Shown in pieces: positions 1-18,305 of a stretch of DNA of 64,000 nt. The position numbers were made by a program, and so were the translations under genes. This DNA comes from Nitrospirota bacterium. Its GTDB lineage: Bacteria > Nitrospirota > Thermodesulfovibrionia > Thermodesulfovibrionales > UBA6898. Every line of letters starts with the position of its first letter. Position 1 is the stretch's first letter. Location: positions 1 to 64,000 of the forward strand of contig JACRMT010000011.1 of assembly GCA_016214855.1 (NCBI GenBank), given 5' to 3'. The notes below the pieces were generated by a model. That model saw only the letters and a list, made by a program, of their open reading frames with translations, was not told the DNA's origin and searched no databases.

Positions 1-398
1 GCAAGAAGATAGTTCGTTACCTTGAGATTTGACAACGCAGCAGCTGTTGCATATGCATTATCCGACGTCAGAGCATTGGCAGGCGTCGCCCATGCATTCG
101 TACCAATAGAAGTATTATTTGCTGCCAAGGTAGGGCTGTTCGGTCCTGAGGTCGCAGCATTTACAGTGGCTGGAACGGCAAGAGCAAAGACAAGGATAAG
201 GGCAATTGCTGCCATGAGCATTATCCCGAGATGAGAAGACTGCCTAAGCTGACGCTGATTATCAGCGCCTTTTCTCTTCTGACCTTCATTTTCATAAAGT
301 CCTCTCATGTCAGCCCTCACCTCTCTTCCGATCATCGAAGTATTTTGTCTCATTTCAGATTTCATCCCGCCATGTATCCTGTATCTGCGCGCGTTCAT
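1..398 (-). CDS. Partial secreted protein (N-terminus only)
   Basis: The reading frame runs off the left edge, so only the N-terminus is visible. ATG at 398 follows a GGTGGGGGG run 13 bases after the giant cytochrome stop; an in-frame ATG at 308 behind GAGGTGAGGG is an alternative. A charged stretch of over 50 residues precedes a hydrophobic core ending in a VNA-A type signal-peptidase site, so export is likely. The mature start (GPNSP, then NAWATPANAL and DNAYATAA) resembles modules of secreted multidomain proteins in Geobacter-like genomes; that resemblance is from memory. No haem motif is seen in this part. It is probably the last visible gene of the cytochrome operon. Function unknown. 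Confidence 0.6.
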   Translation of the reverse strand, partial: MNARRYRIHGGMKSEMRQNTSMIGREVRADMRGLYENEGQKRKGADNQRQLRQSSHLGIMLMAAIALILVFALAVPATVNAATSGPNSPTLAANNTSIGTNAWATPANALTSDNAYATAAALSNLKVTNYLL

Positions 399-411
399 AG
401 TTCCCCCCACC

Positions 412-3400
412 TTATGGCAAACTCGTATGGCACGAGTTACAGGTTATATTTATGGCGCCCCATGTCACCGAGTTTCCGTTATGACATGCCACTGAACTGC
501 ATGACTTGCTTCCCGGATTGTACGATGCTGCAGTCTTGGATCCGTCGGAGGAAGTAATGCCTCCCTTATAACCATTATTTCGGAGCCAACTGTTGTTCAA
601 TTCAGTAACGCTTGTTATGTCATCTCTGATCTGTGCCTTTGAATTAATGGTTCCCGCAGCAAACCCAACATCAGGAGTTCCATTGATATGGGTCGTTGAT
701 AAGGCATCAATGCTCATAGTCCCCTTTGAAGGTGAGGTATGGCAAGAGGAGCATACAGTATTCAGATCGTTACCGACAGTCGACACCGTTGAGTTATGAC
801 AGGTCTGGCAGTTAATTGTGGTTGATGTGGCATCAGTTCCATGGGCATTCTGCCTCAGGCTAGCATCTTTGCTCAAACCGGTTGTTCCGGTAAAAACATT
901 CTTATAATGGATACCGACAAAGTGGCCGCCGACAACGCCCATGCCCATGTAATTTGGATTATAGTGCGAAAGAGACCCGGGCTTTCCGCCGCTGTTCGGT
1001 GAGTTTCCGTGACAGTTGGCACACTTGTCTCCGCTAAAGGCTCCGCCATACCAATCAGGTGTTGTCTGATATCCATATCCTGTGCCGTCGTCATAGCCGT
1101 TGCTATGGCAGTATATGCTTGAGCAGATTACACTGACCCCTGTATTCTGAGTATAAGCCTCTGGCGCTGCATTTTTCGCCTTTACTGTCCCAGATGCAGC
1201 AACATCATACGCATCAAAATTCAGATTCTTAATTCCATTCATATGCGTAGCAACTGTACTGGGGTGGCAATACCCGCAGCCAAACTTGGGATTACCGCTC
1301 ACATAGCTCACCCCGTAGAACCAGACCTCACCGTAATTATTCAGGGACAGCTTCTTGCCTGCAAGTATAGTCGTGACATCAACATGCTTTTGATGCGTTA
1401 AGCTGAGGTTCGCATTCGTATGGCAGTCTGAACAGTTATCTGCCCCACCATCCATTGTTCCATTGATATGTTTTGTCACATCGACAAATCCGGTTCCAGC
1501 GCTATTCACATGGTCGTGGCAGATAATACAGGATGTCGGTCCCGCACCATTATGAGCTGCAATTGCTGCCGGCGGATAGCCATGACATTGCGCACAGTCA
1601 TGTAATGGATCGCCGGTCAGGTAGCTTGTATCATTCCAGGACGGCGTCCTGTTTGCGCCATCGGATGTTCCCTTTGGCATGGCACCGCCATGACAGTAGG
1701 TCGTTGAACACTGACCAGCCGAATATACAGGAGAAATACTCCCTGTCTTTGCAAGACTGCCAAAGGTAAGTTCAGCCGGAAGTGCTGAATCTATATGGCC
1801 GGCCTCAGTCACTGTTGCCGGAACCTTATGACACTCATTACAGGCAACAGGGTTAGCTATATTACTCAGCGCCCGGAGATGCGTCTGATGCGCGCCTACT
1901 ACGCTGCCTGTTGCAAGGGTATTACCAGCAGTATCAGCAGGAGGAGCCTTAGCATAATCAGGAGCAACACCTATCGTCGGTGTTCCGTGACATTTTGTGC
2001 ATGTATCGATTCCCGTCAAATCTGTACCCCACTGCGGAGATATTGTCCCATGACAGAATACTGTCGAACATGTGCCGTATCCATTACCGGGTGCGCCGGC
2101 CTGTGAGTATGAGCCGGCACCGCCGGCCTGCGCTGCATTGAATTCAGTATCAATGCTGCCGTCAGCATGTTTAATAGTGCCAGACCCTGCATTCGTATGA
2201 CAGGTCGCACAGTTATAGCCTGCCACACTCAGATGTTGGGTATGGCTGCCTGATGTCATTGGTGACGCATGACAACTTCCACAGGTAGTTGCTGCTCCAC
2301 CCCATGAAGGCGTTTTATAATCTGAAGTTCCCGCAAGCATCGGCGCTCCACCACTTCTCTGCCCTATACTGTGACAGTACACCGTTGCACAAGTTCCATA
2401 TCCGTTTCCAGGCGTATTTGGCGTCTGGCTATATGATGCGGAATTACTGAAAGGATCAGCGTTAAATGCTACTTCGATAACAGCATTCGCGTGGCTGGCG
2501 GTGCCTTCCCCTGCGTTCTTATGACATTCGGAACAGGTCTTTGAAAGCGGTGCGCCAATATGCGCCGTATGACTACCTGAATCCATGACTGCTTTATGAC
2601 AATCGCCGCAGACAACGCTTCCGGTCCAGGTCGGAGTCTTATAATCTCCTGACGTAAGAGCGCCTCCGTTACTACCTTGACCTGTGCTATGGCAGTATAG
2701 GTTGCCGCATTGCATGGTGCCTGTATTGGAGACTGTGGAGGTTCCAGTATAATTATAATCAACGCCAGACTGGCCATCATAACTGCCGCCCTGAATTGCA
2801 CCACTAAAGAGAGAAAATCCGATTGTAACAGCCTGAATAGTGCCATCATTATGTGTTGGACCTGAGCCCCTGCTGTTATAGTGGCAGTCAGCGCAATCTA
2901 TACCTAACCCATTGAAATGACGATTATGAGCTCCGGCCGTAATCGACCCGGTCGCTGCAGGACTGCTTACCAGCCCATCAGGTCCGCCAGCAGTGGCGTT
3001 AATGGGCGGGAAACCGTGGCAGGTATTACAACCGGCTGCCTGAAATCCTTCTTCGTGCTTATGGCAAGTCACACAATTTGCGCCGTTCTGAGATGCATGC
3101 ACCCCCTGAGCAGATCGCGAGCCATCTGCGCGCCAGTGCTCAGTCAGAGTATGACAGACCTGACATATGCCGTTTGGTGTCGGGTCTGTACCAGTTAAGC
3201 TCTCATCGTAAGCAAATGAATTTTGTCCCGTATTAGAGAAAAATTTTACAACCTTATTAACATTGTCGGCACCCAGCACTGACGTACGAACAAACTGACC
3301 ATAAATAAGGGCAAAGGTATTGCCAACAGAGACTGCACCAGGGTTGCCGGTTACAGTGATCGACGTATCCGTTGCAGAGACAATTTTTCCCGCAACAGGG

Positions 3401-3933
3401 GTCCCTGATATTGGAGTTTTATAAAATATCAGCCCGCGCTCAGTTCCTCCCGCGGCATTAGCCGATTTCTTGCCCCATGTCGCTGCGTCAGTCCAGGCAG
3501 CATTGTTTACAACTTTATTATTATAGCCATAGGTTGTTGAGCCGTCTGGATTTGTCGCAACAGAAGTGACTGTGCCCGTAACCAGATACGTCTGCGTACC
3601 ATAAGAAATTCGCTGCAGCTGACCGTGCGAACCTGCAGCCTGTCGAAAATGGCAGGCAATACAGTCTCTTTCCCAAATGCCATATTTATTGCTCGTATTT
3701 GTACTTGAATGGGTAAGAACCTTTGGAGCGCTATTTTTACTGTACCCGGAGCCCGTATCATTGTTATGACATGATAGACAAACACTATCATTGTAGGGGT
3801 TCGGCATTATATTATGGCAATCAGCACAGATCATAGTGCTCGATACATTGTGCGGTGCATCGAGAACTTGAGCATGCACACTCACCGCCAGTCCGACAAG
3901 GAGAATTCCGATCAGTATCAGTATCTTTTTCAT
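412..3933 (-). CDS. Giant exported multihaem cytochrome c (21 CxxCH + 6 CxxxxCH)
   Basis: This 1173-residue protein starts with a clear signal peptide (MKKILILIGILL to VHAQ) and has no later membrane segment. I count 21 CxxCH motifs, the first near residue 36, and six CxxxxCH motifs (such as CGNLYCH, CATVYCH, CSTVFCH, CSSIYCH). Each CxxxxCH usually precedes a CxxCH, the pattern of the Geobacter CxxxxCH...CxxCH repeat family. Residues about 100-250 lack haem motifs and may form a separate beta domain. The ATG sits in an ATGA overlap with the NHL gene stop and follows AGGGGGG, so translation is probably coupled. Likely role: periplasmic or extracellular electron transfer and storage. Haem attachment at CxxxxCH is not proven. 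Confidence 0.9.
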   Translation of the reverse strand: MKKILILIGILLVGLAVSVHAQVLDAPHNVSSTMICADCHNIMPNPYNDSVCLSCHNNDTGSGYSKNSAPKVLTHSSTNTSNKYGIWERDCIACHFRQAAGSHGQLQRISYGTQTYLVTGTVTSVATNPDGSTTYGYNNKVVNNAAWTDAATWGKKSANAAGGTERGLIFYKTPISGTPVAGKIVSATDTSITVTGNPGAVSVGNTFALIYGQFVRTSVLGADNVNKVVKFFSNTGQNSFAYDESLTGTDPTPNGICQVCHTLTEHWRADGSRSAQGVHASQNGANCVTCHKHEEGFQAAGCNTCHGFPPINATAGGPDGLVSSPAATGSITAGAHNRHFNGLGIDCADCHYNSRGSGPTHNDGTIQAVTIGFSLFSGAIQGGSYDGQSGVDYNYTGTSTVSNTGTMQCGNLYCHSTGQGSNGGALTSGDYKTPTWTGSVVCGDCHKAVMDSGSHTAHIGAPLSKTCSECHKNAGEGTASHANAVIEVAFNADPFSNSASYSQTPNTPGNGYGTCATVYCHSIGQRSGGAPMLAGTSDYKTPSWGGAATTCGSCHASPMTSGSHTQHLSVAGYNCATCHTNAGSGTIKHADGSIDTEFNAAQAGGAGSYSQAGAPGNGYGTCSTVFCHGTISPQWGTDLTGIDTCTKCHGTPTIGVAPDYAKAPPADTAGNTLATGSVVGAHQTHLRALSNIANPVACNECHKVPATVTEAGHIDSALPAELTFGSLAKTGSISPVYSAGQCSTTYCHGGAMPKGTSDGANRTPSWNDTSYLTGDPLHDCAQCHGYPPAAIAAHNGAGPTSCIICHDHVNSAGTGFVDVTKHINGTMDGGADNCSDCHTNANLSLTHQKHVDVTTILAGKKLSLNNYGEVWFYGVSYVSGNPKFGCGYCHPSTVATHMNGIKNLNFDAYDVAASGTVKAKNAAPEAYTQNTGVSVICSSIYCHSNGYDDGTGYGYQTTPDWYGGAFSGDKCANCHGNSPNSGGKPGSLSHYNPNYMGMGVVGGHFVGIHYKNVFTGTTGLSKDASLRQNAHGTDATSTTINCQTCHNSTVSTVGNDLNTVCSSCHTSPSKGTMSIDALSTTHINGTPDVGFAAGTINSKAQIRDDITSVTELNNSWLRNNGYKGGITSSDGSKTAASYNPGSKSCSSVACHNGNSVTWGAINITCNSCHTSLP

Positions 3934-4862
3934 TGCTGACCCCCCTGCTGCACCGCTGCAATTTGCGTTACCTCAAACATCAGGATACTACGAGTTTCAC
4001 TTGCCGCTACATACAGGATGCCATCTGAAGACATTGCAAGAGACACTGCAGTGCGCAGTTCACCGGAATTGCTCTGAATATCTCCCAGCAAGGTTCCTGC
4101 CTCGTCAAAAAGGACAACAGCATTCGTGGCAGCATCCGTTATATACAGTATACCATCAGCAAAGGCTATATCAGTCGGGCGGAACATCTGTGATTTTCCA
4201 TAGTCATGAATTGATCCAATCAGGCTGTAATTCTTATCAAAAATTGATATCCTTGACGCGGTTGTAAATGAATTCTGATCCTTAACAACCGGGGCATCGA
4301 TAATATAAACAGCATCAGCAGTCACCTCTATTGCGATCGGCAGATTTACACCCTCGATCATATTTATATAACGACCGGACTCATCATATATCCTCACCGC
4401 ATTGCCGACATTGTCCACAACAAAAATAAGCCCTGTCGAAGCGTCATGCGAGATGTCACGGATCGAGCGGAATTCATTCTTGCCTGCACCAAGGTACCCA
4501 ACAACCTGCCCATTCTTGACTATTGAGACGGCATAATCCTGATGGGATCCTATATAAAGGGTGCCATTAGGGGCAGCGGCTATAGCTGATACACGGGGGA
4601 ACGAAATATCGCCGATATAGGAGCCGTTTCTGTCAAGCTTCAGGATATGATTCTTATAAGAATCAACAACATACAGCGTTCCGTCAGTTCCAACAGAAAG
4701 CCTGCCGGGAGACCATAAAGCAGACTTGCTCATTGTTATGCCCGCCACCTGCTCAACCGCCGGCAACCCAGTTGCCTGGCCTACGGCCGGCAGTATCATT
4801 GCCAGCGCACAGAAGAGCAGTAGCGCTCCTATCTTTGTCTGTCTCTTAAAGCTGCTTTCCAT
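3930..4862 (-). CDS. Exported NHL-repeat beta-propeller protein
   Basis: A 310-residue protein with an N-terminal signal peptide (hydrophobic LLLFCALAMILP) followed by repeated blades of the type GxLYVVDxxxNxIxxLD, typical of six-bladed NHL propellers. No lipobox cysteine is seen, unlike the other two NHL proteins of this locus. The start at 4862 is chosen because AAGGGGG precedes it; an upstream in-frame ATG at 4910 has no good ribosome site. The stop overlaps the giant cytochrome start by 4 bases. NHL proteins are recurrent neighbours of multihaem cytochromes, where a scaffold or assembly role is usually proposed. A sigma-54-like element lies about 97 bases upstream. Confidence 0.85.
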   Translation of the reverse strand: MESSFKRQTKIGALLLFCALAMILPAVGQATGLPAVEQVAGITMSKSALWSPGRLSVGTDGTLYVVDSYKNHILKLDRNGSYIGDISFPRVSAIAAAPNGTLYIGSHQDYAVSIVKNGQVVGYLGAGKNEFRSIRDISHDASTGLIFVVDNVGNAVRIYDESGRYINMIEGVNLPIAIEVTADAVYIIDAPVVKDQNSFTTASRISIFDKNYSLIGSIHDYGKSQMFRPTDIAFADGILYITDAATNAVVLFDEAGTLLGDIQSNSGELRTAVSLAMSSDGILYVAASETRSILMFEVTQIAAVQQGGQQ

Positions 4863-4958
4863 AATCTCTCGCCCCCTTATTGTAACTGTTTTATCCAATA
4901 TAATTGCCATAGTTTTTCTCTGTTTCAGCTCTCCGAATATTATTTACAAATAAAATAA

Positions 4959-4974
4959 GCAAAAAACATGCCTT
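4959..4974 (-). promoter_or_regulatory. Sigma-54-like -24/-12 element
   Basis: Read on the minus strand: AGGCAT, five bases, TTGC, close to the TGGCAC-N5-TTGC consensus. It lies about 97 bases before the NHL gene start at 4862. A second, weaker copy (GGCAT then TAGC) lies just upstream at 4990-5005. The 240-base gap between octahaem and NHL genes is AT-rich and otherwise holds only inverted repeats. Transcription from here would start a unit covering the NHL gene, the giant cytochrome and the secreted protein. Confidence 0.45.
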
Positions 4975-5064
4975 ATTTACCCAACGAATAGCTAAAAAAA
5001 TGCCTTCTAAACCAATGAGATACAAAACTCACGCAAGAGCGTTGACACGGATAATCCTGTATCA

Positions 5065-5080
5065 TGTGAGTTATTTCACG
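5065..5080. promoter_or_regulatory. CRP/FNR-family-like palindrome
   Basis: TGTGA, six bases, TCACG: nine of ten consensus positions of the TGTGA-N6-TCACA site bound by CRP-type regulators. It lies about 95 bases upstream of the sigma-54-like element. Its AACTCAC arm also pairs with GTGAGTT on the other strand at 5026-5032, making a wider dyad. The operator role is inferred from position and symmetry only. Confidence 0.3.
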
Positions 5081-5102
5081 CACATTGAGACATATCTACC
5101 AG

Positions 5103-6185
5103 CTACCACTGAGACAGGCAACGGTTATTAACACAATACGTCAGTGTCTGATTTAGTTTATGCTCATACTTTTGGCCATTGACATGACACGAAAGATAAC
5201 ACCGCGGGCTCCCGCGCAAGGCAGACAGATAGGTCAGCTCACCGGCAGAGTTCGGAAAAACCATTGTTGCGTCGAACTTAATCAGCGCAGGATTATACCT
5301 GCTGCCATGCGCATCGTGGCATTGACCACAGGAGATCTGATTATAGATTACATGAATCTTGTGGGCCTTAAAGCTCTCATCGCCGAGGATGCTGGATCTC
5401 TCATGACAGGAATAACAAAGCTCATAAGCCTTAGAGCTTTCAGATCCGGTAGTGCGTAAATAGCGATATTTTAAAATAGGCTCATAGATCGAGCCGTGAG
5501 GGCCCTTTGGCCCTGATGGATCATCATTGCCATGACAGTCAGAGCAGGATATGGTGCTTGAGCGCGTATATCCTTTCCGCAGACTTGGAACAAAAGAATT
5601 TTTCCCAAAAGTCTCAACAGGATGAAACGACGCATTCGTCGGGGCAAATGCAAGGGCAATATTACCCTGTTCGATGGAGGGATTTCCCTGGTCAGCGTGG
5701 CAGTTATAACAGACCTCATATTCATTTCTGACCTGCCTGACCGCCGCTCCTCTGCCGGAATACCCTTTCAGCCCCTTGATGGTGTTTCCCTTTTCCGTTT
5801 TATGCATATTGTGGCAGTCATAGCAGGAAACATGCCGCAAAGCTCCCATAGAGCTATCCGGCATGCGCTCACCCGGCACATGTTTATACGAGGTCTGGAT
5901 AACAGGATGGTTTGAATTCTTCATGACAACTGAATAGATGTCCAGGCCCGATTTTTCGCCGTTATTCCGCGAGTCAAACCCGTGGCAGGAAAAGCAGATT
6001 TCATCTTTCGGCTGCTTAAGCATGGAAGTTCCCCGCTTGCCATGCCCCCTGTGGCAGGCACCGCACCCTCCTGGCACCTTAGCTCTATCCAGATGGGTTC
6101 CTTTACCAGCATACCCGATATCTCCAGCAAAGAACATTAGGAAAAAAACAGATGTCAGAAATAGCAATATCGAAAGTTTTCTCAC
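5103..6185 (-). CDS. Exported 7-8-haem cytochrome c (doubled CxxCH type)
   Basis: About 360 residues. A basic start (RKLS) and a hydrophobic segment ending near YAGKG indicate export. Seven CxxCH motifs are visible (CGACH, CFSCH, CYDCH, CYNCH, CSDCH, CYSCH, CGQCH), plus one CxxxCH (CYLSCH) near the C-terminus that could bind an eighth haem. Spacing and phrases such as CHRGH, CHNMH and CHDAHGS fit the paired-CxxCH cytochrome family. GTG at 6185 is preferred: it follows GAAAGAG, places the signal peptide at the very N-terminus and lies 13 bases after the tetrahaem stop. ATG at 6236 would add 17 residues and overlap that gene. Likely a periplasmic electron carrier in the conduit. Confidence 0.85.
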   Translation of the reverse strand: MRKLSILLFLTSVFFLMFFAGDIGYAGKGTHLDRAKVPGGCGACHRGHGKRGTSMLKQPKDEICFSCHGFDSRNNGEKSGLDIYSVVMKNSNHPVIQTSYKHVPGERMPDSSMGALRHVSCYDCHNMHKTEKGNTIKGLKGYSGRGAAVRQVRNEYEVCYNCHADQGNPSIEQGNIALAFAPTNASFHPVETFGKNSFVPSLRKGYTRSSTISCSDCHGNDDPSGPKGPHGSIYEPILKYRYLRTTGSESSKAYELCYSCHERSSILGDESFKAHKIHVIYNQISCGQCHDAHGSRYNPALIKFDATMVFPNSAGELTYLSALRGSPRCYLSCHVNGQKYEHKLNQTLTYCVNNRCLSQW

Positions 6186-6198
6186 AAAGCGCGCTCTT

Positions 6199-6972
6199 TC
6201 ATGGACATGCCAGATCACAGTCCCGATGACAGGCAAGGCAGAGCGGATCTATGCCCAGAACCGGATCACTAATGTCAACTCTGAGAAATTTGTTGCCAGA
6301 GGGCGAGTCCTCATGCGGATCGTGGCAGGATGAGCACTGCACGCCGGTCTTTGTGTGGGAACCGGCTCCATACAAATTATTGGTCGGCCTCATCTTCACC
6401 GCATTACCGGCAGAAGGAAAACATACCCTCCAGCTGATCGGCGAGACCGGGTCATTGCATTGGGTATTCTTGGCGTTTATCAGCGCAGTATTAACCTCAA
6501 GAGAAACAGGGTGATGACCGCTCAGGTCAGTGCCGAGATTTGATGAACCAGGGTCTCCGGCCACTCCCGGCATGACTCCGCCAGTGCCGGTCCCCTCTAC
6601 ATTAATTATGCTTGGAGAGTACCCGGAACGGGCAACTGATCCTATAGCGACTGTCCCGTCGTGACAACTCAGACAGAGTCTTGAGTCTCCATCGGGAGGA
6701 TTCTGGGGCACTGATTTCATGGTCGGTGATGCTGACAATGTATAGACAGCATTCGAAAGGGTATGATTCCAGAGCGGGACATGAAGTCCATCAATGTTGA
6801 CGGTGGCACTATGCGGCGTGTGGCAGAAAACACAGATACGATCTTCAACCCCGGACTTAACAACACCGGGACCAGTCATTGAAAGATTATGCTTCGTGGC
6901 AGCGATGCCGGCAATAGCGATCGATGTGCTGTGCAACACCATTAATATAATAAAATAAATTCTACCGATCAT
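6199..6972 (-). CDS. OmcE-like exported tetrahaem cytochrome c (second copy)
   Basis: 257 residues with a signal peptide (MIGRIYFIILMVL to IAIAG) and four CxxCH motifs: CVFCHTPH, CLSCHDG, CSSCHDPH and CLACH. The order TKHNL, CxFCHxPH, PLW, LCLSCHDG, GTDLSGHHPV, CxSCHDPH, FLR, LCxxCH is shared with the tetrahaem gene at 11125-11898 and with OmcE, a Geobacter cytochrome that polymerises into extracellular filaments (from memory). An insert with two extra cysteines (CNDPV, VCFPS) between haems 2 and 3 sets this copy apart and could form a disulfide. It sits 14 bases after the NHL lipoprotein gene and just before the octahaem gene. Confidence 0.85.
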   Translation of the reverse strand: MIGRIYFIILMVLHSTSIAIAGIAATKHNLSMTGPGVVKSGVEDRICVFCHTPHSATVNIDGLHVPLWNHTLSNAVYTLSASPTMKSVPQNPPDGDSRLCLSCHDGTVAIGSVARSGYSPSIINVEGTGTGGVMPGVAGDPGSSNLGTDLSGHHPVSLEVNTALINAKNTQCNDPVSPISWRVCFPSAGNAVKMRPTNNLYGAGSHTKTGVQCSSCHDPHEDSPSGNKFLRVDISDPVLGIDPLCLACHRDCDLACP

Positions 6973-6986
6973 GTTTTTTTCAATGC

Positions 6987-8021
6987 TTATTTCGCCCCAA
7001 GATATCTAAAAACCTGCACCCTGCTGTTATAGGTATCTGCAACATAGATAAAATCATTCCTGATAAAAATACCAGATGGCAGGTACAATTGTCCATAATC
7101 CTGACCCTGTCCACCAAAAAAAAGGAGCAGCTTACCCTCTCTATTAAACATTTTTACCATATCTTTTATTGCATCGACAACATAAATATTCCCTGCGCTG
7201 TCCGTTGCTATGCCCTTCGGTTTTTCAAGATTCCCGTAGGCATCGCCCAACGAACCGAACATATCGAGAAACTCTTCACGGGGAGAAAATATCTGCACCC
7301 TGAAATTCATCGAGTCCGTAACAAAAAGCTCTCCCTGAGCGCCCACCCAGAGATGGGCAGGAAAATTGAACTCCCCCTTTTCTGAGCCCTGCTTACCAAA
7401 ACTGCCGAGTCGTTTGCCTTCAAGATTGTATTTATAAATCGTATGTGCAACCGTATCAGCAACATACATATACTTTCTTTCAGCGTCAAGGGCAAGCGCT
7501 GTCGGCCGCTCAAACGCACCCTCAAATGTTCCGGCAAGCCTCATTCCCGAATCAAAGATAAACACTTTTTTTAATAAAGAATCACTTATGAATATCCGCC
7601 CCTGATATGAGACCACGCCGATAGGAGATAGAAGATCCTCATTTCCTGCCTTCAGGATATGGCTCAACTCACCTGTCCGCGTATTGATAATCGTGACACG
7701 GAAAGCACCCGTATCAGCAATAATCAGGGAATCCTGATCATCAGCATATATCCCATAGGGTCGTATCAACTGCGTAGCAGACTGCGGATCAGTAATGTCG
7801 CCTCCCACGCCTCCGGCAAAAAAATCGAAAAAACGGCCTGCTTCTGAAGCCCACGAAGATACTGTCCATTGATAGACAATCCGCGGTCTTTCCGGCTGTC
7901 CCGGCCAAAAGATCGTTTCTGCTGCGGTGCGGTCGATAGCTGCTTTTTGTGAAGCACAGGAAGCCATCATCATGCAGCTCAGCAGAAAAAACAGGAGGAT
8001 GCTCTTCTTTTCAGAAAACAC
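6987..8021 (-). CDS. NHL-repeat beta-propeller lipoprotein
   Basis: 344 residues. The signal peptide ends in a lipobox (MASC), so Cys22 is probably lipidated. The mature start has the phrase FWPGQPERPRIVY, matching WPLPPDEPRIRY in the NHL lipoprotein at 12213-13277, so the two are paralogues. Blades contain repeated GIxxDxxGxIYVVDxxxxRVQVF patterns. The gene begins 8 bases after the barrel stop and ends 14 bases before a tetrahaem cytochrome. Role is inferred: a lipid-anchored propeller at a membrane that could dock or assemble the cytochromes. The protein has no haem motif or obvious catalytic site. Confidence 0.87.
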   Translation of the reverse strand: MFSEKKSILLFFLLSCMMMASCASQKAAIDRTAAETIFWPGQPERPRIVYQWTVSSWASEAGRFFDFFAGGVGGDITDPQSATQLIRPYGIYADDQDSLIIADTGAFRVTIINTRTGELSHILKAGNEDLLSPIGVVSYQGRIFISDSLLKKVFIFDSGMRLAGTFEGAFERPTALALDAERKYMYVADTVAHTIYKYNLEGKRLGSFGKQGSEKGEFNFPAHLWVGAQGELFVTDSMNFRVQIFSPREEFLDMFGSLGDAYGNLEKPKGIATDSAGNIYVVDAIKDMVKMFNREGKLLLFFGGQGQDYGQLYLPSGIFIRNDFIYVADTYNSRVQVFRYLGAK

Positions 8022-8029
8022 ACATGTCC

Positions 8030-9901
8030 CTAAAAAAACGGCCTCAGTACCTGATCAAAAGTCCTTCTCAGGGCAAAAGAAAAGCGGTGGTCCATCTGAC
8101 CACTGCCTTCCGTTTTTCTGAGCGTGTAACGCGCGGTCAAATAGGTCTTTCTGAAAGACCAGGACAGAGACGGGTCAAACTCGAGGGTTGACAAACCTGT
8201 GTTGGCCTTCGCATACGATATTCGGGCGTTCACAAAAAGCCTTCTGCCAAGCTGTCTTGACACCCCTAAATAAATCAACGTAGTGTTCGTGTCAGCAGCA
8301 AGCCCGCCCGTCTTTTGTATAGAAAGATAATTCGCGCCAAGATTAAACCTGACTGCCAGCACGTTCCAGTACATGTCGCCGCGGAGACTGAGCAGCTTTT
8401 CTTTTTCCCCTGTCTGCAAACTGTCGGTCTGATAAAAATTCCGCGATGCCAAATAGATGCTGCCCGGCAGAAGCGTACTGAAACTAAATCCAACTCTTTG
8501 GATATCCCGCTCTTCGCCGGCTATACCGGAATGGCTGTATGCATATTCCGTAAGCGTACCGATCCGTGTTCTCGTGGCAAGACCAACGCGTGCGCCATAG
8601 TCCCGCTGCTTATCACTGCCGCCTGCACTCAAGACTCCGGAAAGGGTAAGCCTGTTTGACAGCTGATACCGGATTGAATCAGAAACTGACACAAAGTAAT
8701 CCCCTGCGCTGCCCACAACATTCGTGTCCGACAGGCTGTTCACAACATCACGCTCGGTGTTGCCATACCCAAGGCTGACAGAGACAGTATTACTGAGACG
8801 TTCGGAAAGGTTTCGGGTATATTGGCTTCCAACATTACCTGAGTACCCACTGCTCAGATCAGCCGTAAAGTAGCGAAGACCGCCCAAAATTGAAAGACTG
8901 TCTTTTTGATCCTTACCGAACCTCTTCAGCCAAATGCCCCGGCTGGAAATGTCAAACAGACTGCCGCTGTCTCCGGAGCGGTAAAATATACGGTTAAAGA
9001 CATCTAACGTGGTGGCAGCCTTTGTATCCGGGAAATGATAGTCTGCGCGCAGTTCGAAAAGATGCTCCTTAAAAGAATAGGCGTTATTATCTGAATTATT
9101 GGTGTTATTAATATAGCGATATTCAAAGAAATAATCGCTGTTTTTCATAAAGGTGACTGCCCTGAAATCAAGATTGGTATTCTCTGACCTGAATCCTGAA
9201 CTGCCGTTATCATATATATACCTGTCATAATCGAGCGTAAAAGACGGAAAGGGTATCACAAGCCCACCTCTTTCCTTTCGGTTCGCCATGTTGCTGCTAT
9301 TATTGCTGTCGTTGCTGCTTGTACCATCATTGCCTGCGTTGCCATTATTTTCATTGCCTAAAGCAGAAGAGCCCACAGGCAACTGCCTCACAAGGGAGAT
9401 GACCTTACCGTTTCGGAAAAATGCCAGAGACCTGCCGGGCATATTGTAATAAAGACTCAATCCATAATTGTAGCTTGTGTAACGTCCGGAGGTGCTATAG
9501 TCAAAGCGCAGTTGTATCGGCTGGGGGAAATAGGCCAGAGGACCCCGCAATACCCGGCTATTCAGGAGAAAGATTCTTGTGCCAAAACCATACGTATTTT
9601 CTGTAACGCCGGGATTACGTATATCCTGCATAAAGGAGCCTGAAAGTTCAAACATAACCAGGCGAGGGTCAGATACATACCCGCTGAGTTTAATGTGATA
9701 TTCATGCCTCAGCTTATCCTGTTCGCGACGGTCACCCCATTCCCTCTCATAGTCAACAGAAATATCACCGGTTAAAAGAAAATACCGTGAGTGAAGCCGG
9801 GAACTGTCGGATAATGCATCGGCATTCTTTACAGGAAAAAATAAAAAAATAAAAAAAATAAAGAGAATCTTGATCTCACTGCTTTTTCTATACTTAATCA
9901 T
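8030..9901 (-). CDS. Outer-membrane beta-barrel protein (porin-like)
   Basis: 623 residues with a signal peptide (IKILFIFFIFLFFPV to ADALS). The rest is alternating amphipathic strands rich in Y, R, S and G, many of the form RxxFxLGYxYxNT. It ends in RTFDQVLRPFF, with the terminal Phe typical of barrels inserted by the BAM machinery. Residues about 185-215 form a low-complexity N/S/G-rich stretch, probably a long loop. I recognise no named family. Lying between a prolyl isomerase and cytochrome/NHL genes, it is the best candidate for the outer-membrane channel of a porin-cytochrome conduit. Strand count cannot be judged by eye. Confidence 0.8.
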   Translation of the reverse strand: MIKYRKSSEIKILFIFFIFLFFPVKNADALSDSSRLHSRYFLLTGDISVDYEREWGDRREQDKLRHEYHIKLSGYVSDPRLVMFELSGSFMQDIRNPGVTENTYGFGTRIFLLNSRVLRGPLAYFPQPIQLRFDYSTSGRYTSYNYGLSLYYNMPGRSLAFFRNGKVISLVRQLPVGSSALGNENNGNAGNDGTSSNDSNNSSNMANRKERGGLVIPFPSFTLDYDRYIYDNGSSGFRSENTNLDFRAVTFMKNSDYFFEYRYINNTNNSDNNAYSFKEHLFELRADYHFPDTKAATTLDVFNRIFYRSGDSGSLFDISSRGIWLKRFGKDQKDSLSILGGLRYFTADLSSGYSGNVGSQYTRNLSERLSNTVSVSLGYGNTERDVVNSLSDTNVVGSAGDYFVSVSDSIRYQLSNRLTLSGVLSAGGSDKQRDYGARVGLATRTRIGTLTEYAYSHSGIAGEERDIQRVGFSFSTLLPGSIYLASRNFYQTDSLQTGEKEKLLSLRGDMYWNVLAVRFNLGANYLSIQKTGGLAADTNTTLIYLGVSRQLGRRLFVNARISYAKANTGLSTLEFDPSLSWSFRKTYLTARYTLRKTEGSGQMDHRFSFALRRTFDQVLRPFF

Positions 9902-9927
9902 GCAGTTTCATTATCAGACATAGCATG

Positions 9928-10989
9928 TCAGGGTTTATCGTCAATAGTTATCATAATAGTGACCGGATGCTCGTCTTTCATCCTCTTTAGTATCTCCGCC
10001 TTTTTTTCATCAAATCGCTGCTTCTGAAGTTTTTGTGCCAGGTCATCCTTCACCTTTTCAAATTCGGGCAGCTCGCCCGGCCTCTTTTCGCCGGCCTTTA
10101 GAATATGCAGGCCGTGGATAGTCCTGATCACTCCGCTCAGCTGCCCCGGCTCCAGCGCAAAGGCAGCGGTTTCCAACTCCTCAGGGGTAAGCATTCCCTT
10201 ATGGATAAAGCCAAGATCTCCGCCCTTAACCCGGTAAGGATCATCAGAGTTGTTATAGGCTATCATAAAGAAGTCCTCGCCGGACTGAATTTTCTTCAGC
10301 AGTTCCTCAGCCTTTTCCCTCTTTTTCTGCCAGGCATCTTCCATGGCTGATGGGTCAACCTTTAAAAGAATGCTCTGCATACGAACAGATGCCGGCCGCC
10401 GAAAACTTTCCCTATGTTTCTCATAATACGTTACTAATTCCTCTTCCAGATACGCGCTCTTTTTTAAAAGTTTTATCAGGAATTCATTAGCAGACAGGTA
10501 GGTCTTGATTTTTTCCTTAAAGGCTTCCATCGAGAGCCCTCTTAGTTTCAAGACTTCCTGCAATGCCTGTTCTGATCCCATACTCTGCACATTTTGTGCA
10601 ACAACGCCGGTCACTGCAGCTTCCGAAATTTGTAGACCCTCTTTTAAGGCGGCATAATAAATCAGCTGTGCCTCAATCAATTCGTCCAGGGCCTCGCGCC
10701 GGTACGCCGGCTTCTGCGTAAGATCCTGACCATGAGAATACATATTCTGCACCTTCTTGCTGACAGCCTCCTGAAGGTCCATATCTGTAATAACTGCAGC
10801 TCCGACACGGGCGATAACTGCAGGATTTAGGGGAACCGTCCCGGTGGCTGCTGCTGAGGCTTGAGGAGGTAATACTTTTATTTCATCTGAAAACGCGGGG
10901 GAACAATTCAGGAGGACGAGGGAAATCAGACAACATGAGAAAAAGAATGACCAGAGTTTCTGCAGCCGTATCTTCCAATTTTGTCTCAT
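9928..10989 (-). CDS. Exported parvulin-type peptidyl-prolyl isomerase (SurA/PrsA-like)
   Basis: 353 residues. A signal peptide (hydrophobic to about residue 33) is followed by a SurA-N-like helical region (about 50-180) containing DELIEAQLIYYAALKEG. A PPIC rotamase domain (about 200-305) has SILLKV, GGDLGFIHKGML, FALEPGQLSGVI and GLHILKAGEK. ATG at 10989 with GAGGGG upstream is chosen over an in-frame TTG at 11010. The gene sits just before the barrel gene with a 26-base gap and just after the terminator of the first tetrahaem gene. Such isomerases fold exported or outer-membrane proteins, so it is probably a dedicated chaperone for the barrel or cytochromes. Confidence 0.88.
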   Translation of the reverse strand: MRQNWKIRLQKLWSFFFSCCLISLVLLNCSPAFSDEIKVLPPQASAAATGTVPLNPAVIARVGAAVITDMDLQEAVSKKVQNMYSHGQDLTQKPAYRREALDELIEAQLIYYAALKEGLQISEAAVTGVVAQNVQSMGSEQALQEVLKLRGLSMEAFKEKIKTYLSANEFLIKLLKKSAYLEEELVTYYEKHRESFRRPASVRMQSILLKVDPSAMEDAWQKKREKAEELLKKIQSGEDFFMIAYNNSDDPYRVKGGDLGFIHKGMLTPEELETAAFALEPGQLSGVIRTIHGLHILKAGEKRPGELPEFEKVKDDLAQKLQKQRFDEKKAEILKRMKDEHPVTIMITIDDKP

Positions 10990-11072
10990 GCGCCTTTTCC
11001 CCTCACGCAATAAATTTTAATATTATACTTTTCCATGAGCAAAAGAGGCAACTATAATTGCAATGGATAAAC

Positions 11073-11102
11073 AAAGGGGGCAAGCAGTTGCTTGCCCCCT
11101 TT
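11073..11102 (-). terminator. Rho-independent terminator after OmcE-like gene
   Basis: A perfect 13-base-pair stem (AAAGGGGGCAAGC with its complement) and a 4-base loop. On the minus strand it is followed by a short T-rich stretch (TTTGTTT). It lies 22 bases after the tetrahaem stop and before the prolyl isomerase gene. It would make the tetrahaem transcript mostly single-gene, allowing much higher expression of that cytochrome than of the genes read through downstream. Confidence 0.85.
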
Positions 11103-11124
11103 GCCCACTGATACTTAATACTTC

Positions 11125-11898
11125 TTATTTTAATGAGTGACAATCCACGCAAAGGTCAGCTGCCGGTCTCCTCAGAAACGAACCGTTTGTCTGATCATGA
11201 GGATCATGGCATGTGCCGCACTCAACTCTGTTGTTTGCACCTGGACCATAATTATACAGCCTGAGTGCTGCTGGAACGGCTCCGACAGCTGCCAGGCCTG
11301 CTATGTTAGGCGCAGCATCCGTGTACACGATACCAACAGGGTGGTCATTCGTAAGATCGACGCCAGAAAGACCGCCAATAGCCGGATTATATCCGGGCCG
11401 AGCTCCACCAGCCATGTATGCGGGATTAGTAGCATATCCGGTATAACTAAGATTATTTGCACCGCCGATCAAGGTCCCAGGATTTGCTGTCATGGCAAAA
11501 CCGGAAGTAACAATACCATTTTTATACGTAACACCGAGGCCCTGGACTCCATCATGACATGACAGACAGGTAAGAGAGTTCGCTCCCGGCTGATCCACTA
11601 CGGTGGTAGCAAGGGTAGCACCCTGGTTACCTGGAAGAGTACCGCCATATACCACAAACGCGCCGGCAATCGCACTCAAATCTCTTGCCCAGAGAGGAAC
11701 GCCCGTAATTGTGGTATCCCCACCATGAGGTATGTGGCAGAAACCGCATACCGATGCTGCGATATCAGCAGTCTGGGGAGCATTTGGATCGATCTGAGTA
11801 GAAGTCAGATTATGTCTCGAAGTTGAAACAACAGCAAATGCTGCGGTACTGACTGCAAGAAGTGCAATTACAAACATTAAAATCATTACTTTTTTCAT
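11125..11898 (-). CDS. OmcE-like exported tetrahaem cytochrome c, candidate nanowire subunit
   Basis: 257 residues with a signal peptide (MKKVMILMFVIALLAV to AAFAV) and four CxxCH motifs: CGFCHIPH, CLSCHDG, CGTCHDPH and CVDCH. It shares the RHNL, PLW, CLSCHDG, VDLTNDHPV, CHDPH, FLRRP pattern with OmcE-type tetrahaem cytochromes. The mature chain is rich in Gly, Ala and Asn. ATG at 11898 is set by a perfect AAGGAG six bases upstream. The gene has its own sigma-54-like promoter and a strong terminator, features of a highly expressed single gene. Filament formation is inferred from family resemblance and cannot be shown from sequence alone. Confidence 0.9.
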   Translation of the reverse strand: MKKVMILMFVIALLAVSTAAFAVVSTSRHNLTSTQIDPNAPQTADIAASVCGFCHIPHGGDTTITGVPLWARDLSAIAGAFVVYGGTLPGNQGATLATTVVDQPGANSLTCLSCHDGVQGLGVTYKNGIVTSGFAMTANPGTLIGGANNLSYTGYATNPAYMAGGARPGYNPAIGGLSGVDLTNDHPVGIVYTDAAPNIAGLAAVGAVPAALRLYNYGPGANNRVECGTCHDPHDQTNGSFLRRPAADLCVDCHSLK

Positions 11899-12034
11899 CG
11901 TTGTCTCCTTAATTTCTGTTAATAAATTAATTTCCACAGCATCATCCAAAATCTACTCAATACTACTACTAATATTATTACCTCCTTTATTCTGATTATT
12001 TTCATCAACAGCACATTATTGTCTAATTTAAGCA

Positions 12035-12050
12035 GCAAAATATATGCCAA
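12035..12050 (-). promoter_or_regulatory. Sigma-54-like -24/-12 promoter of tetrahaem gene
   Basis: Minus strand: TTGGCAT, five bases, TTGCT, matching the YTGGCAC-N5-TTGCW consensus at nearly every conserved position. It lies about 137 bases before the tetrahaem ATG, giving a leader of roughly 125 bases. It is within the 314-base gap 11899-12212, the longest gap in the window. The rest of that gap is AT-rich, with no ORF or clear hairpin seen. A sigma-54 promoter needs an NtrC-type activator; binding sites for one cannot be named here. Confidence 0.55.
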
Positions 12051-12212
12051 GTTTCCCGGATAAATTGCAAAAACAAAAATCCTTTATTATTAAACATTAA
12101 AAGTAATAGCAGCACTATTCATTCAAATACTCTTACTGTCTTCAGCGTCATTTAACTCACTTGAAAGCGATTATTCACCCATGATTGACGGGCGGCCCCT
12201 GTCCTATGGCCC

Positions 12213-13277
12213 CTATGGCGACTTCTTTTTCTCACCCGCTTCCTTCGTTTCCCGACTCTTGTCAAATTTCTTGCCAAGATACTGAAATATCTGTACAACT
12301 CCTGGATACTGATCAACAACATAGATCTTATCATCATGATCAATCGCAATGCCAGCCGGAAGCCAGAACTTTCCCGGTGGATCTCCAGGGCCGCCAACAG
12401 AGAGGAGAATATGCCCCTCCTGATCGAATATCTGGAAATTAGAAAATGCTGTATCCACAACATAGATGTGCCCCTCTGAATCAACAGCCACACCCTTCGG
12501 CCGTGCCAAGGTACCAGGCAAATCTCCAAGCTGCCCAATCTTCCTGAGAAACTTGCCTTGGGCATCAAAAACCTGAACCCTGAAATTGCCGGTGTCCACA
12601 ACATACAACTTTCCTTCAGCATCAATCGTTATATTTGAAGGGTAATTAAACTGCCCCTCTGCCGTCCCCCGGCTGCCGATTGTTCTGATCAAGTTACTGT
12701 CTTTCAGGGAATAGACAGCTACATAATGTTTTTTTGAATCAACAACATACAGGACGCCTCTTTTATCATCAACAGCAACTCCGCTGGGGCTCTCAAGCTC
12801 ACCCTTCTGGCCGAAAACGCCGGCATATTTCTTGCCCCTGTATACAAAAACCCTGTCCTGACTAATATCGGTCACGAAAAGTCTGCCGTCTTCCGAGAAA
12901 CTCATGCCAACAGGAAACGATAACTTTCCGATACCGGCTTCTGTGCCGATAAAATCATAAGACTTATTTTTCAGATCAAAGAGAAAAACCTTTCCCGGAT
13001 CAGAAACATAAATCACCCCCTGCTTGTCAACAGCAACACCGTAAGGCTTTGCCATCGCATCGACCTTTTCCTCTCCAAAAAGCGCGTCAGCAACACCGGT
13101 TTTCTTGCCGACATCAAGGGTGCTCCGGATTGTATCAACATATCGTATCCGCGGTTCGTCCGGAGGAAGGGGCCAGACCATATCTATGTTCGGCTTCTGA
13201 TAGGTCGGTGCACAGGAAACAATGAGGGAAAGAGTGAGGAAGAGAACAAAGGTCAACCACTCAGTTTTTCTGCTCAC
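12213..13277 (-). CDS. NHL-repeat beta-propeller lipoprotein
   Basis: About 354 residues. GTG at 13277 is chosen because AAAGGGG precedes it and it puts the signal peptide at the N-terminus, ending in a lipobox (IVSC). ATG at 13325 would add 16 residues. The mature protein starts with WPLPPDEPRIRYV, then six or so blades such as KGVAVDSEGHIYVVDTAFSN and NFRVQVFDAQGK. The last 15 residues are lysine-rich (KEAGEKKKSP), unlike the paralogue at 6987-8021. It follows the 11-haem gene by about 100 bases and is probably cotranscribed with it. Role inferred as scaffold or assembly factor for cytochromes. Confidence 0.86.
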   Translation of the reverse strand: MSRKTEWLTFVLFLTLSLIVSCAPTYQKPNIDMVWPLPPDEPRIRYVDTIRSTLDVGKKTGVADALFGEEKVDAMAKPYGVAVDKQGVIYVSDPGKVFLFDLKNKSYDFIGTEAGIGKLSFPVGMSFSEDGRLFVTDISQDRVFVYRGKKYAGVFGQKGELESPSGVAVDDKRGVLYVVDSKKHYVAVYSLKDSNLIRTIGSRGTAEGQFNYPSNITIDAEGKLYVVDTGNFRVQVFDAQGKFLRKIGQLGDLPGTLARPKGVAVDSEGHIYVVDTAFSNFQIFDQEGHILLSVGGPGDPPGKFWLPAGIAIDHDDKIYVVDQYPGVVQIFQYLGKKFDKSRETKEAGEKKKSP

Positions 13278-13383
13278 TGAGCCCCTTTCTCTAAGGTAAT
13301 CGTATCGTGAATTGGTCATCTGCATTTCCCCGGATAATTTTCGACTTGTAATATATCATTTGATATCAAATATAACAACTGCA

Positions 13384-14310
13384 TCACTTCTTGTGACAAT
13401 TGATACAAAGCTCAAATGAAGAGTTTGCCTTGAATACTATAAGTCGTCTATATTCGGAACTGTGAGGATTATGGCAACTCCCGCAATAAAACTCTTTTTC
13501 CGGCCGCGCAGGATCCTTAATTTCCGTTTTCTTCGTCGTTTTTTTACTATCTCTTTTTTCAATTGATCCAACCGGATGCCTGAATTCTGCTACAACATGC
13601 CGCTTTTTCAGAACATCAGGATGGCAGGTGACACAGACCGCCGCAGGCCTGTCGTTAAGCAATGCCATCTCAGCAGTGGCATGGGGACTATGGCAACTGA
13701 GACACATGCCGCCGGCAACCGGTGCATGCACGTTTTTCTTCGAAAAGATCGCCTTATCATGGCAATTAAAACAGAGGTCAGGGGCTTCAGATAACAGGAG
13801 TTTTGCATTGTCAGCGCTGTGCGGGTTATGACAACTCGTACACATACCGCCCATTACCGGCGCATGGATTGTCTTATTTTCAAATTTGGTCTTGTCATGG
13901 CAGTTGAAGCAGAGCCCCGGCATTTCAGCGATAAGCAGCTTCTGAGCATCTGCGGAATGAGGGTTGTGGCATGTCGTGCAGCCCATCATAAGAGCTGCAT
14001 GCACATTTTTCTTTGAGAAGATGCCTTTATCGTGACAGCCATAACAGATATCAGGCTGAGAAGCAGAGAGGCCCTTTGGTACCTTTCCGGTAACTTTATG
14101 CGGCACGTCCGTAACATTGAGGCTGGTATGGCACGTTACACAGCCCATACCTATAGCGGCATGTACCGTTTTCTTTTTGTCAAGATCAGGATGGCACATA
14201 CTGCAGTCAACCGGTTCAGCAAATACTGGCTGGACACCAAAACAGAATAAAAAGATAAAACATGCTGCCGACCGAATCAAATTTGCCCGAATTGAACTTA
14301 ACTGTTTCAT
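13384..14310 (-). CDS. Exported 11-haem cytochrome c (repeated doubled-CxxCH)
   Basis: 308 residues from ATG 14310 (or 311 from ATG 14319). A signal peptide ending in VFAEP is followed by eleven CxxCH motifs: CSMCH, CVTCH, CYGCH, CTTCH, CFNCH, CTSCH, CFNCH, CLSCH, CVTCH, CGSCH and CINCH. The middle consists of near-identical repeats (KKNVHAP, GGMCxSCHNPHSAD, PxLCFNCHDK), so the protein grew by internal duplication of a two-haem unit. A lysine-rich linker without haems lies between haems 9 and 10. Probably a periplasmic electron carrier that feeds the conduit. A -10 box overlaps the first ATG, favouring the second ATG and a leaderless message. Confidence 0.9.
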   Translation of the reverse strand: MKQLSSIRANLIRSAACFIFLFCFGVQPVFAEPVDCSMCHPDLDKKKTVHAAIGMGCVTCHTSLNVTDVPHKVTGKVPKGLSASQPDICYGCHDKGIFSKKNVHAALMMGCTTCHNPHSADAQKLLIAEMPGLCFNCHDKTKFENKTIHAPVMGGMCTSCHNPHSADNAKLLLSEAPDLCFNCHDKAIFSKKNVHAPVAGGMCLSCHSPHATAEMALLNDRPAAVCVTCHPDVLKKRHVVAEFRHPVGSIEKRDSKKTTKKTEIKDPARPEKEFYCGSCHNPHSSEYRRLIVFKANSSFELCINCHKK

Positions 14311-14317
14311 GCTTTTC

Positions 14318-14347
14318 ATTATATGAGTATAGACCCTATTTTTTCAA
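14318..14347 (-). promoter_or_regulatory. Sigma-70-type promoter of 11-haem cytochrome gene
   Basis: Minus strand: TTGAAA (14342-14347), an 18-base spacer, then TATAAT (14318-14323). The -10 box overlaps the ATG at 14319, and the expected transcription start falls at or next to the ATG at 14310. That would make the message leaderless, consistent with the lack of a Shine-Dalgarno sequence. Confidence 0.5.
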
Positions 14348-14420: not shown

Positions 14421-15446
14421 TCAATACCATATGACTGACCCATCTTTCATTTTTACCGGGACTTTTCGCATTGTCAGGTGTTTTTCCCAAAGCTGCCTGT
14501 TATCGGCATACCACCGGATCGCCTTTGCCAGCCCGTCTTCAAACACAATGCTCGTCCTGAACCCAAGGACCTCCTCGGCTTTTGCGGTAGAAGAGATATG
14601 TTTCTGTACCTGGCCATATCTCTCCTGAATATAATCAAGATGTTCCTTTGACCCGAATTCAGCGGAGATTATCCTTGCGATCTCGAGCACCGAGATGTCT
14701 CTCCCGGTTCCCACGTTAAAAACCTCACCTTTGACCCTTTCAAGCGGCGCATGGATAGCAAGATCTATCGCCCTGGCCGTATCTTCCGCATACACCCAGT
14801 CCCTCGAGGCAGAACCATCCCCATGGATCGTCAGCGGTTCTCCGAGAATACAGCTCGTAATAAACCGCGGCACAACCTTTTCCAGATGCTGCCTCGGGCC
14901 AAAATTATTGAACGGCCGGATGATTACCCCCGGGATATCATGAGTCAGGACATATGAATAGACAAGCCGGTCGGCGCCGGCCTTTGCGGCCGCATAGGGG
15001 CTGGTCGGATTCAGAGGGTGAAGCTCATCCATCGGCTCATATTCTGCTGTGCCATAAACTTCGGAAGTGGATATGTGGATAAACCTCTCGATTCGTTCTG
15101 CATGCTTCAGAACAGCATTGGCCACTGACTGAGTCCCGAGTACATCCGTAACAAAAAAGACCCGCTGGGAATAGAGGGAGCGAGCCACATGGGTCTCTGC
15201 TGCAAAATGCACAACGATATCAGCCCGTGCAACCAGGTCGCTGACCAGATCAAGGTTATTGATATCGCCATACCAGAACTCAAACCGGTCTGCATTGCGA
15301 ATATCAGAAGGGATATTTTCAATGTCACCGGCATAGGTAAGCATATCCAGAACAATGAGATGATAATCAGGATATTTCCTGAAAATGAACTCAACGAAAT
15401 TACTGCCGATAAAACCGGCGCCGCCTGTCACTAACATGGTTTTCAT
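14421..15446 (-). CDS. RmlB-like NAD-dependent nucleotide-sugar 4,6-dehydratase/epimerase
   Basis: 341 residues of the extended short-chain dehydrogenase family. The N-terminus has the NAD-binding [17 protein letters not shown] and YAAAKAGAD give the catalytic Ser/Thr and YxxxK, and GPRQHLEKVVPRF and GDGSASRDWVYAEDTARAI mark the sugar-nucleotide domain of the dTDP-glucose 4,6-dehydratase group. ATG at 15446 follows GAGGATGAGC; a second ATG at 15452 overlaps the upstream stop. It probably makes a 4-keto-6-deoxy sugar nucleotide for the glycan. The substrate (dTDP-, UDP- or GDP-) cannot be fixed from sequence. It is the downstream-most gene of the glycan cluster. Confidence 0.82.
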   Translation of the reverse strand: MKTMLVTGGAGFIGSNFVEFIFRKYPDYHLIVLDMLTYAGDIENIPSDIRNADRFEFWYGDINNLDLVSDLVARADIVVHFAAETHVARSLYSQRVFFVTDVLGTQSVANAVLKHAERIERFIHISTSEVYGTAEYEPMDELHPLNPTSPYAAAKAGADRLVYSYVLTHDIPGVIIRPFNNFGPRQHLEKVVPRFITSCILGEPLTIHGDGSASRDWVYAEDTARAIDLAIHAPLERVKGEVFNVGTGRDISVLEIARIISAEFGSKEHLDYIQERYGQVQKHISSTAKAEEVLGFRTSIVFEDGLAKAIRWYADNRQLWEKHLTMRKVPVKMKDGSVIWY

Positions 15447-15448
15447 GC

Positions 15449-17773: not shown

Positions 17774-18293
17774 ATTCTTCTTTTAAAACAGACAGATGAA
17801 CAGTATCGTAGAAACAGCCGCCCATAAAAATATCCTGCCTGAACTTCCCCTCAAGCCGGAACCCGAGCCTTTCATAAAAACGACAGGCATCCTCATTGTA
17901 TGAAATGACATATACTGAGACACGGTTCAGTCCTATTTCTTCAAAGGCATACCAGAGAAGCCCCCGAACAGCGTCGCCGCCATAGCCCTTGCCACGGCTT
18001 TCCCGGTCACCGATAAAGATCCAGAGTTCAGCCTTGCGATTTTTAAGGTCAATATGCTTCAGACCGCATTGTCCGATAAACGCTCCAGTTTCATTCCGTT
18101 CAATTGACAAGACCAGCTGGCTGCTATCAGTGAGAACGCTCTGATACCACGCACGGTGGGAATCCGGAGAGGTCTTTACTGTCCTGTTGATCGACCGGAG
18201 GAGCTCGGCGTCTTGCATCCATTCAAATAAGGTATCAAGGTCTTCCCGGGCAATTCCCCGTAAAATGACTTTCCCGCTATTGACCCTCAACAC
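17754..18293 (-). CDS. GNAT-family N-acetyltransferase (RimJ/RimL-like)
   Basis: 179 residues. The acetyl-CoA loop ESRGKGYGGDAVR and the C-terminal VYVISYNEDACRFYERLGF are typical of RimJ/RimL-type acetyltransferases. GTG at 18293 is preceded by GGAG. It overlaps the creatininase-like gene by 20 bases. With two sugar aminotransferases in the cluster, it may N-acetylate an amino sugar nucleotide, though the substrate is not shown. Confidence 0.82.
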   Translation of the reverse strand: MLRVNSGKVILRGIAREDLDTLFEWMQDAELLRSINRTVKTSPDSHRAWYQSVLTDSSQLVLSIERNETGAFIGQCGLKHIDLKNRKAELWIFIGDRESRGKGYGGDAVRGLLWYAFEEIGLNRVSVYVISYNEDACRFYERLGFRLEGKFRQDIFMGGCFYDTVHLSVLKEEYGKSIE

Positions 18294-18305
18294 GCACTCC
18301 AGCTG

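Follow-up and report, generated by a model that had tools for sequence, protein, structure and literature searches.

We conclude that the minus-strand cytochrome locus near the left end of the window (the whole stretch of DNA analysed, 64,000 nucleotides) corresponds, in rearranged form, to a little-studied but known system, the undecahaem electron transfer (Uet) pathway, judged by the published description given in PMC10734462. The data support the view that the locus serves extracellular electron transfer at the outer membrane: OmcE-like cytochromes are encoded together with a barrel, a dedicated isomerase and propeller lipoproteins. This conserved set of haem proteins, with its outer-membrane pore, probably connects the cell electrically with its surroundings. 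With moderate confidence we favour a Uet-type conduit with a split UetJ (barrel, MHC8 and 4hemB; Table 1), joined to a filament of the OmcE-type tetrahaem 4hemA. The parts, their homologies, the conserved order, the gene fusion, the phylogenetic split and the terminator were all computed directly.

Composition of the locus and its relation to Uet

The ten genes run from 14319 down to 412 in the order MHC11, NHLa, 4hemA, isomerase, barrel, NHLb, 4hemB, MHC8, NHLc and MHC21. A motif count over the window ORFs gave 47 CxxCH in the five multihaem cytochromes (21, 7, 4, 4 and 11 in the minus-strand ORFs 412-3933, 5103-6236, 6199-6972, 11125-11949 and 13384-14319), exactly the total of the initial annotation, and no further window ORF has two or more. 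There are seven extra possible haem sites: six CxxxxCH in MHC21 and one CxxxCH at the C-terminus of MHC8. The latter is invariant in a 15-sequence alignment and present in 78 of 79 homologues, and MHC8 therefore has eight haem sites; the estimate of 11, 4, 4, 7-8 and 21+ motifs thus becomes 11, 4, 4, 7 and 21 CxxCH, the "7-8" protein having seven CxxCH and one CxxxCH. The three NHL propellers, isomerase and barrel that had been placed on one strand are borne out by Pfam (NHL repeats in three proteins, SurA_N and rotamase in the isomerase) and by a confident barrel model. What does not stand is the word "complete". The locus encodes no inner-membrane quinol-oxidising protein, so the electron path here is not complete and the claim of an inner-to-surface path in one place is not supported; moreover, the contig (G000:C11) begins at window position 1, which truncates the left end. 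At window 3-410, on the minus strand, a gene begins with a signal-like segment and is cut off by the contig end. The contig of a relative, G002, breaks at the same place, which suggests a long repetitive surface-protein gene that stops assemblies.

Table 1. Features of the locus, ordered by position in the window
Feature	Position	Strand	Assignment	Evidence
MHC21	412..3933	-	1173-aa secreted cytochrome	21 CxxCH and 6 CxxxxCH; GSu_C4xC__C2xCH domain TIGR01904, 133.7 bits
NHLc	3930..4910	-	third NHL propeller	NHL 39.1 bits; 81% identity in G002
MHC8	5103..6236 (start imprecise, 6236 or further downstream on the minus strand)	-	8-haem MtrA-like cytochrome, C-terminal part of UetJ-type proteins	7 CxxCH and 1 CxxxCH
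4hemB	6199..6972	-	OmcE-fold tetrahaem, N-terminal domain of UetJ-type proteins	OmcE 7TFS, E 1.7e-21; clusters with fused proteins (98/95)
NHLb	6987..8021	-	NHL-propeller lipoprotein, UetH/I-like	NHL 76.2 bits; lipobox MASC
Barrel	8030..9901	-	large outer-membrane beta-barrel, UetC-like/MtrB-like	AF2 pLDDT 85.4, about 28 strands (model without haem)
Isomerase (PPI)	9928..11010	-	SurA/PpiC-type peptidyl-prolyl isomerase, UetB-like	Pfam SurA_N_3 and Rotamase; kept beside barrel
Hairpin	11072..11103	-	terminator-like, directly 3' of 4hemA	14-bp perfect stem, then TTTAT; region z -5.5
4hemA	11125..11898 (ATG at 11898)	-	OmcE/UetA-like tetrahaem, candidate filament subunit	OmcE 7TFS, E 8.6e-18; OmcE side of tree; 8 haem-ligand His invariant
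NHLa	12213..13325	-	NHL-propeller lipoprotein, UetH/I-like	NHL 109.7 bits; lipobox IVSC
MHC11	13384..14319	-	secreted 11-haem MtrA/DmsE-like cytochrome	11 CxxCH; MtrA 6r2q_A, E 6.7e-21

The combination had been thought not to be a named system, a view that the description of Uet in PMC10734462 overturns. Uet is named for the cathode-oxidising Tenderiales and is described there in cathode oxidisers and iron oxidisers, namely Ca. Tenderia electrophaga and Gallionella (Eddie et al. 2022, via PMC10734462). Its parts are given as the undecahaem UetJ (11 or 12 CXXCH), the extracellular tetrahaem UetA, the isomerase UetB, the barrel porin UetC, the periplasmic trihaems UetDEG and the NHL proteins UetHI. 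Compared by that description, both loci bring together a tetrahaem, an isomerase, a barrel porin and NHL proteins: UetA corresponds to the OmcE-type tetrahaem 4hemA (whose extracellular location is predicted), UetB and UetC to the isomerase and barrel, and UetH and UetI to NHLa and NHLb, with NHLc in addition. The window differs from the description in four respects. UetJ is probably represented by two adjacent genes, 4hemB and MHC8; the UetDEG trihaems are missing, the motif count finding no trihaem ORF in the window (such ORFs were found in the related loci L122 and L131); an 11-haem MtrA-like cytochrome, a third NHL protein and a 21-haem cytochrome are added; and the host belongs to the Nitrospirota.

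Among the added or variable parts, MHC11 scores 139.7 bits against the DmsE family TIGR03508, under the family cut-off, and is probably a periplasmic carrier. The cytochrome at the place of MHC21 varies in relatives from 13 to 35 CxxCH. The lipobox recurs in 34 of 43 NHLa and 52 of 70 NHLb homologues, whereas none was seen in NHLc, whose place in other loci is taken by an 800-940-aa propeller protein.

Directly upstream of the cytochromes lies a glycan island (14421-24367, minus strand) with a nucleotide-sugar epimerase, WbqC, an aminotransferase, several GT2 glycosyltransferases and a radical SAM protein. Near 4hemA in several relatives there are members of a multi-membrane family of about 550-605 residues with a D-x-FWHIKTGEW-type motif (L037:13295-15100, L045:14108-15925, L047:11466-13271, L044 and L048-L050), which has two homologues elsewhere in this genome. 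They are perhaps glycosyltransferases, and filament glycosylation is possible. The ORFs of about 600 residues near 4hemA in other loci that we had considered as a second barrel are these multi-membrane proteins.

The tetrahaem proteins and a probable split UetJ

This genome has no full-length OmcE-like genes other than 4hemA and 4hemB. Each aligns with OmcE (7TFS) over nearly its full length and keeps all eight haem-binding histidines, in 4hemA including the four distal ones; full-length homology and four bis-His haems, both read from the alignment, place 4hemA in the OmcE type. The initial annotation spoke of both tetrahaem copies. Two OmcE-like tetrahaems they are, but they are not equivalent: in a tree of 52 tetrahaems they lie on opposite sides of a split with bootstrap 98 and SH-aLRT 95 and one positional exception, 4hemA with tetrahaems from other positions, OmcE, 9YUQ and the Geobacter OmcE orthologues, and 4hemB with the fused proteins discussed below. 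A quick tree of 86 tetrahaems gave the same split. Outside the haem motifs 4hemB has extra cysteines, of which C172 and C252 are invariant in the 4hemB alignment; possibly they form a disulphide absent from 4hemA.

The gene layout separates the two as well. The 4hemA leader is long (median 233.5 bases), and the gap between 4hemB and MHC8 is short (median 6.5 bases). A strong hairpin, mostly with a T-run, follows 4hemA in the window and in 14 of the 14 related loci examined; such hairpins stand after 80% of 4hemA genes, against 9-31% for other families, and a hairpin follows OmcE in five Geobacter loci. OmcE orthologues from Geobacter metagenome-assembled genomes (MAGs), searched for with residues 9-231 of 7TFS and 45-57% identical to it, have the long leader and hairpin too. 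Because 4hemA is a separate gene with a long leader and strong terminator, as in these orthologues, its layout is what one would expect of a subunit made in excess, for example a filament protein. Codon adaptation, taken as a proxy for high expression, showed no difference and supports neither side.

These observations bear on the idea that the locus is an ordinary porin-cytochrome conduit alone, forming no tetrahaem filaments and using 4hemA and 4hemB as surface or periplasmic shuttles. An OmcE-like sequence is no proof of polymerisation, many 4hemB homologues are domains within larger proteins, and a physiological role of the filaments as electron conduits is disputed (PMC11077965). Nevertheless, we regard this idea as improbable in view of the grouping of 4hemA with OmcE and 9YUQ, its full complement of distal histidines and its separate, terminator-bounded gene, as seen for OmcE.

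The relation of 4hemB to MHC8 is clearest where the two are fused. In 16 loci from several phyla they are replaced by one ORF with 11 CxxCH and the CxxxCH, an OmcE-like half plus an octahaem half, which matches both HMMs. It occupies the 4hemB/MHC8 place, following NHLb as 4hemB does: an NHL gene is directly upstream of 52 of 55 4hemB genes and 13 of 15 fused forms, as compared with 1 of 33 for the remaining multihaem genes of these loci. Where the fused form occurs, the ORFs upstream of NHLb mostly have outer-membrane-protein-like ends, and a profile built from them aligns with the full length of the window barrel (E 4e-21); barrels beside fused proteins that are homologous to the window barrel include those of the Pseudomonadota loci L121 and L131. 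On these sequence comparisons (the fusion in 16 loci, the common place after NHLb and the barrel match), 4hemB and MHC8 very probably function as a single unit next to the barrel. Some Nitrospirota genomes (G003, G033 and G045) have the split form and a fused UetJ-type paralogue of about 590-620 residues.

A proposed conduit, a possible export machine and the path of electrons

The barrel sequence found no match in Pfam, NCBIfam or PDB. Its model is structurally closest to MtrB (6r2q_B; Z 18.0, 435 aligned, rmsd 7.9), 2.4 above the next match, the others being ordinary receptors and porins with Z up to 15.6. The AF2 model of MHC8 (pLDDT 87, built without haem) is closest in VIA-align to MtrA (6r2q_A; Z 8.0, 199 aligned, 31% identity), a modest score of a level reached by other unmatched models; Foldseek with this model gave no match, and a HMMER profile comparison of MHC8 with MtrA gave E 1e-9. 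An MtrB-like barrel with MtrA-like MHC8 and MHC11 thus supports, without proving, an Mtr-like conduit. Compared with MtrCAB, the locus has an MtrB-like barrel and MtrA-like cytochromes, the latter two in number, but no MtrC; NHL lipoproteins and tetrahaems of the OmcE type are present instead. Residues 159-212 of the barrel, between strands 6 and 7, form a disordered Asn-rich loop; relatives have in its place a (GN)n repeat that can reach several tens of residues. In one single-contig relative the barrel gene is divided, its halves lying on opposite strands and 105 kb from each other (G014:C1 208057 and 313787; L042, L043), as may result from one inversion, real or an assembly error.

The same genes could be read as machinery that exports and assembles a cytochrome filament, in which the barrel would pass 4hemA and 4hemB, the isomerase would fold them and the propellers would tidy the filament. 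As described for the osc operon of G. sulfurreducens (Shen et al. 2025), OscH acts in OmcS folding, OscEFG in secretion and OscD in morphology, so that proteins for these functions stand beside filament cytochromes there as well; that filament, however, is of the hexahaem OmcS, and the motif count finds no protein with six CxxCH in our locus. True OmcE loci also have a barrel-like ORF after OmcE, and in Geobacter MAGs the NHL-4hemB-MHC8 set adjoins not a barrel but a type II secretion operon (in L115:9243-19469 and L117 this operon follows the set, with no barrel nearby and a secretin that has a cohesin domain). From this arrangement we judge, on gene neighbourhood, that the barrel is not an obligatory partner, and the secretion neighbourhood is unexplained by a pure conduit model. 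On balance we still consider an export machine unlikely, since the best match of the barrel is MtrB and the adjoining MHC8 is MtrA-like, as expected of a conduit, and since a fixed 1:1 fusion of 4hemB to MHC8 suits a structural complex more than a passing substrate.

For the conduit that we favour, we infer as follows where the proteins lie in the cell, how they form a complex and polymerise, what serves as the anchor and which way electrons flow. The barrel would hold the eight haems of MHC8, and 4hemB, one polypeptide with MHC8 in other phyla, would extend them to the cell surface. MHC11 would ferry electrons across the periplasm to MHC8. 4hemA, the bulk subunit, would be made separately and in excess, polymerise outside and touch 4hemB, a protein of the same fold, through its haems. 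Electrons could then pass, in either direction, along MHC11, MHC8 in the barrel, 4hemB at the surface and the 4hemA filament with MHC21, an accessory surface cytochrome. NHLa and NHLb, as lipoproteins at the surface, would have a stabilising or capping role in the complex, the isomerase would aid folding or insertion of the barrel and cytochromes, and the part that takes electrons from the inner membrane would have to be encoded elsewhere in the genome.

Built of the same parts, the cluster might instead draw electrons into the cell from minerals, cathodes or partner cells, the role put forward for Uet in cathode-oxidising Tenderiales and Gallionella. This is compatible with our preferred conduit and is a serious possibility, if short of probable. 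It fits the description of Uet in cathode and iron oxidisers (PMC10734462) and the presence elsewhere in the genome of dsrA and two COX1-type oxidases. The genome also encodes one weak NapC-like protein outside the locus; a search for DsrD gave no match, nor did its controls. On the other hand, direction is unreadable from sequence, and some hosts of MHC8 relatives are Geobacter-like, OmcE being used outwards by Geobacter.

Conservation, distribution and implications

The initial annotation had made conservation of gene order in relatives one of its tests, and up to all ten genes keep their order in Nitrospirota relatives. G002 has the same ten genes in the same order at 47-81% identity, and several further genomes have most of them in the window order; the locus is therefore not a chance assembly. 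In some related loci the order of isomerase and barrel is swapped. Searching a one-genome-per-species collection with the MHC8 profile gave 151 relatives, of which 80 loci were kept. They are mostly from Nitrospirota, with others in Desulfobacterota, Myxococcota, Acidobacteriota, Verrucomicrobiota, Omnitrophota, Sumerlaeota and Pseudomonadota. The core of barrel, isomerase, NHL protein, 4hemB and MHC8 recurs across Nitrospirota and reaches about eight phyla with diverged barrels.

The annotation had also pointed to Geobacter OmcE loci, and the order cytochrome-NHL-OmcE-barrel is indeed common to those of the MAGs, which have an 8-haem cytochrome, an NHL lipoprotein, OmcE with its long leader and terminator, and a barrel-like ORF. 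The fuller ones read ppcA, resB, ccsA, 8-haem cytochrome, NHL lipoprotein, OmcE, barrel-like ORF; relative to the window, ppcA, resB and ccsA are added, the isomerase and 4hemB/MHC8 are absent and the barrel homology is weak. As the last 75 columns alone align, we do not claim homology of the two barrels. One Geobacter MAG (L165:1-6848, minus strand) has a 2282-aa ORF with 41 CxxCH beside an OmcE-like tetrahaem. The Geoalkalibacter ferrihydriticus locus Ga0056053_02426-02431 brings two NHL proteins and an OmcE homologue together with cytochromes, some MtoA-like and some not, with no mtoB barrel reported there (PMC12016550), and clusters of Desulfovibrio ferrophilus have related gene combinations.

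We tentatively suggest that nanowires of the OmcE family have their base at the cell surface in 4hemB-MHC8 (UetJ), an MtrA-like wire that would be held in a barrel and end in an OmcE-like domain on which the filament subunits stack. If so, it would be the missing anchor and electron entry point of cytochrome filaments in about eight phyla, and if 4hemB and 4hemA connect, Uet and OmcE nanowires would be one system. With MHC8 in 58 of 176 sampled genomes of the window's Nitrospirota order, Uet-like genes extend to about one third of these genomes. In one conserved set, the outer end of the conduit may be an OmcE-like domain adjoining a separately expressed OmcE-like subunit, and the relatives of this locus suggest how protein "nanowires" could attach to the cell surface.
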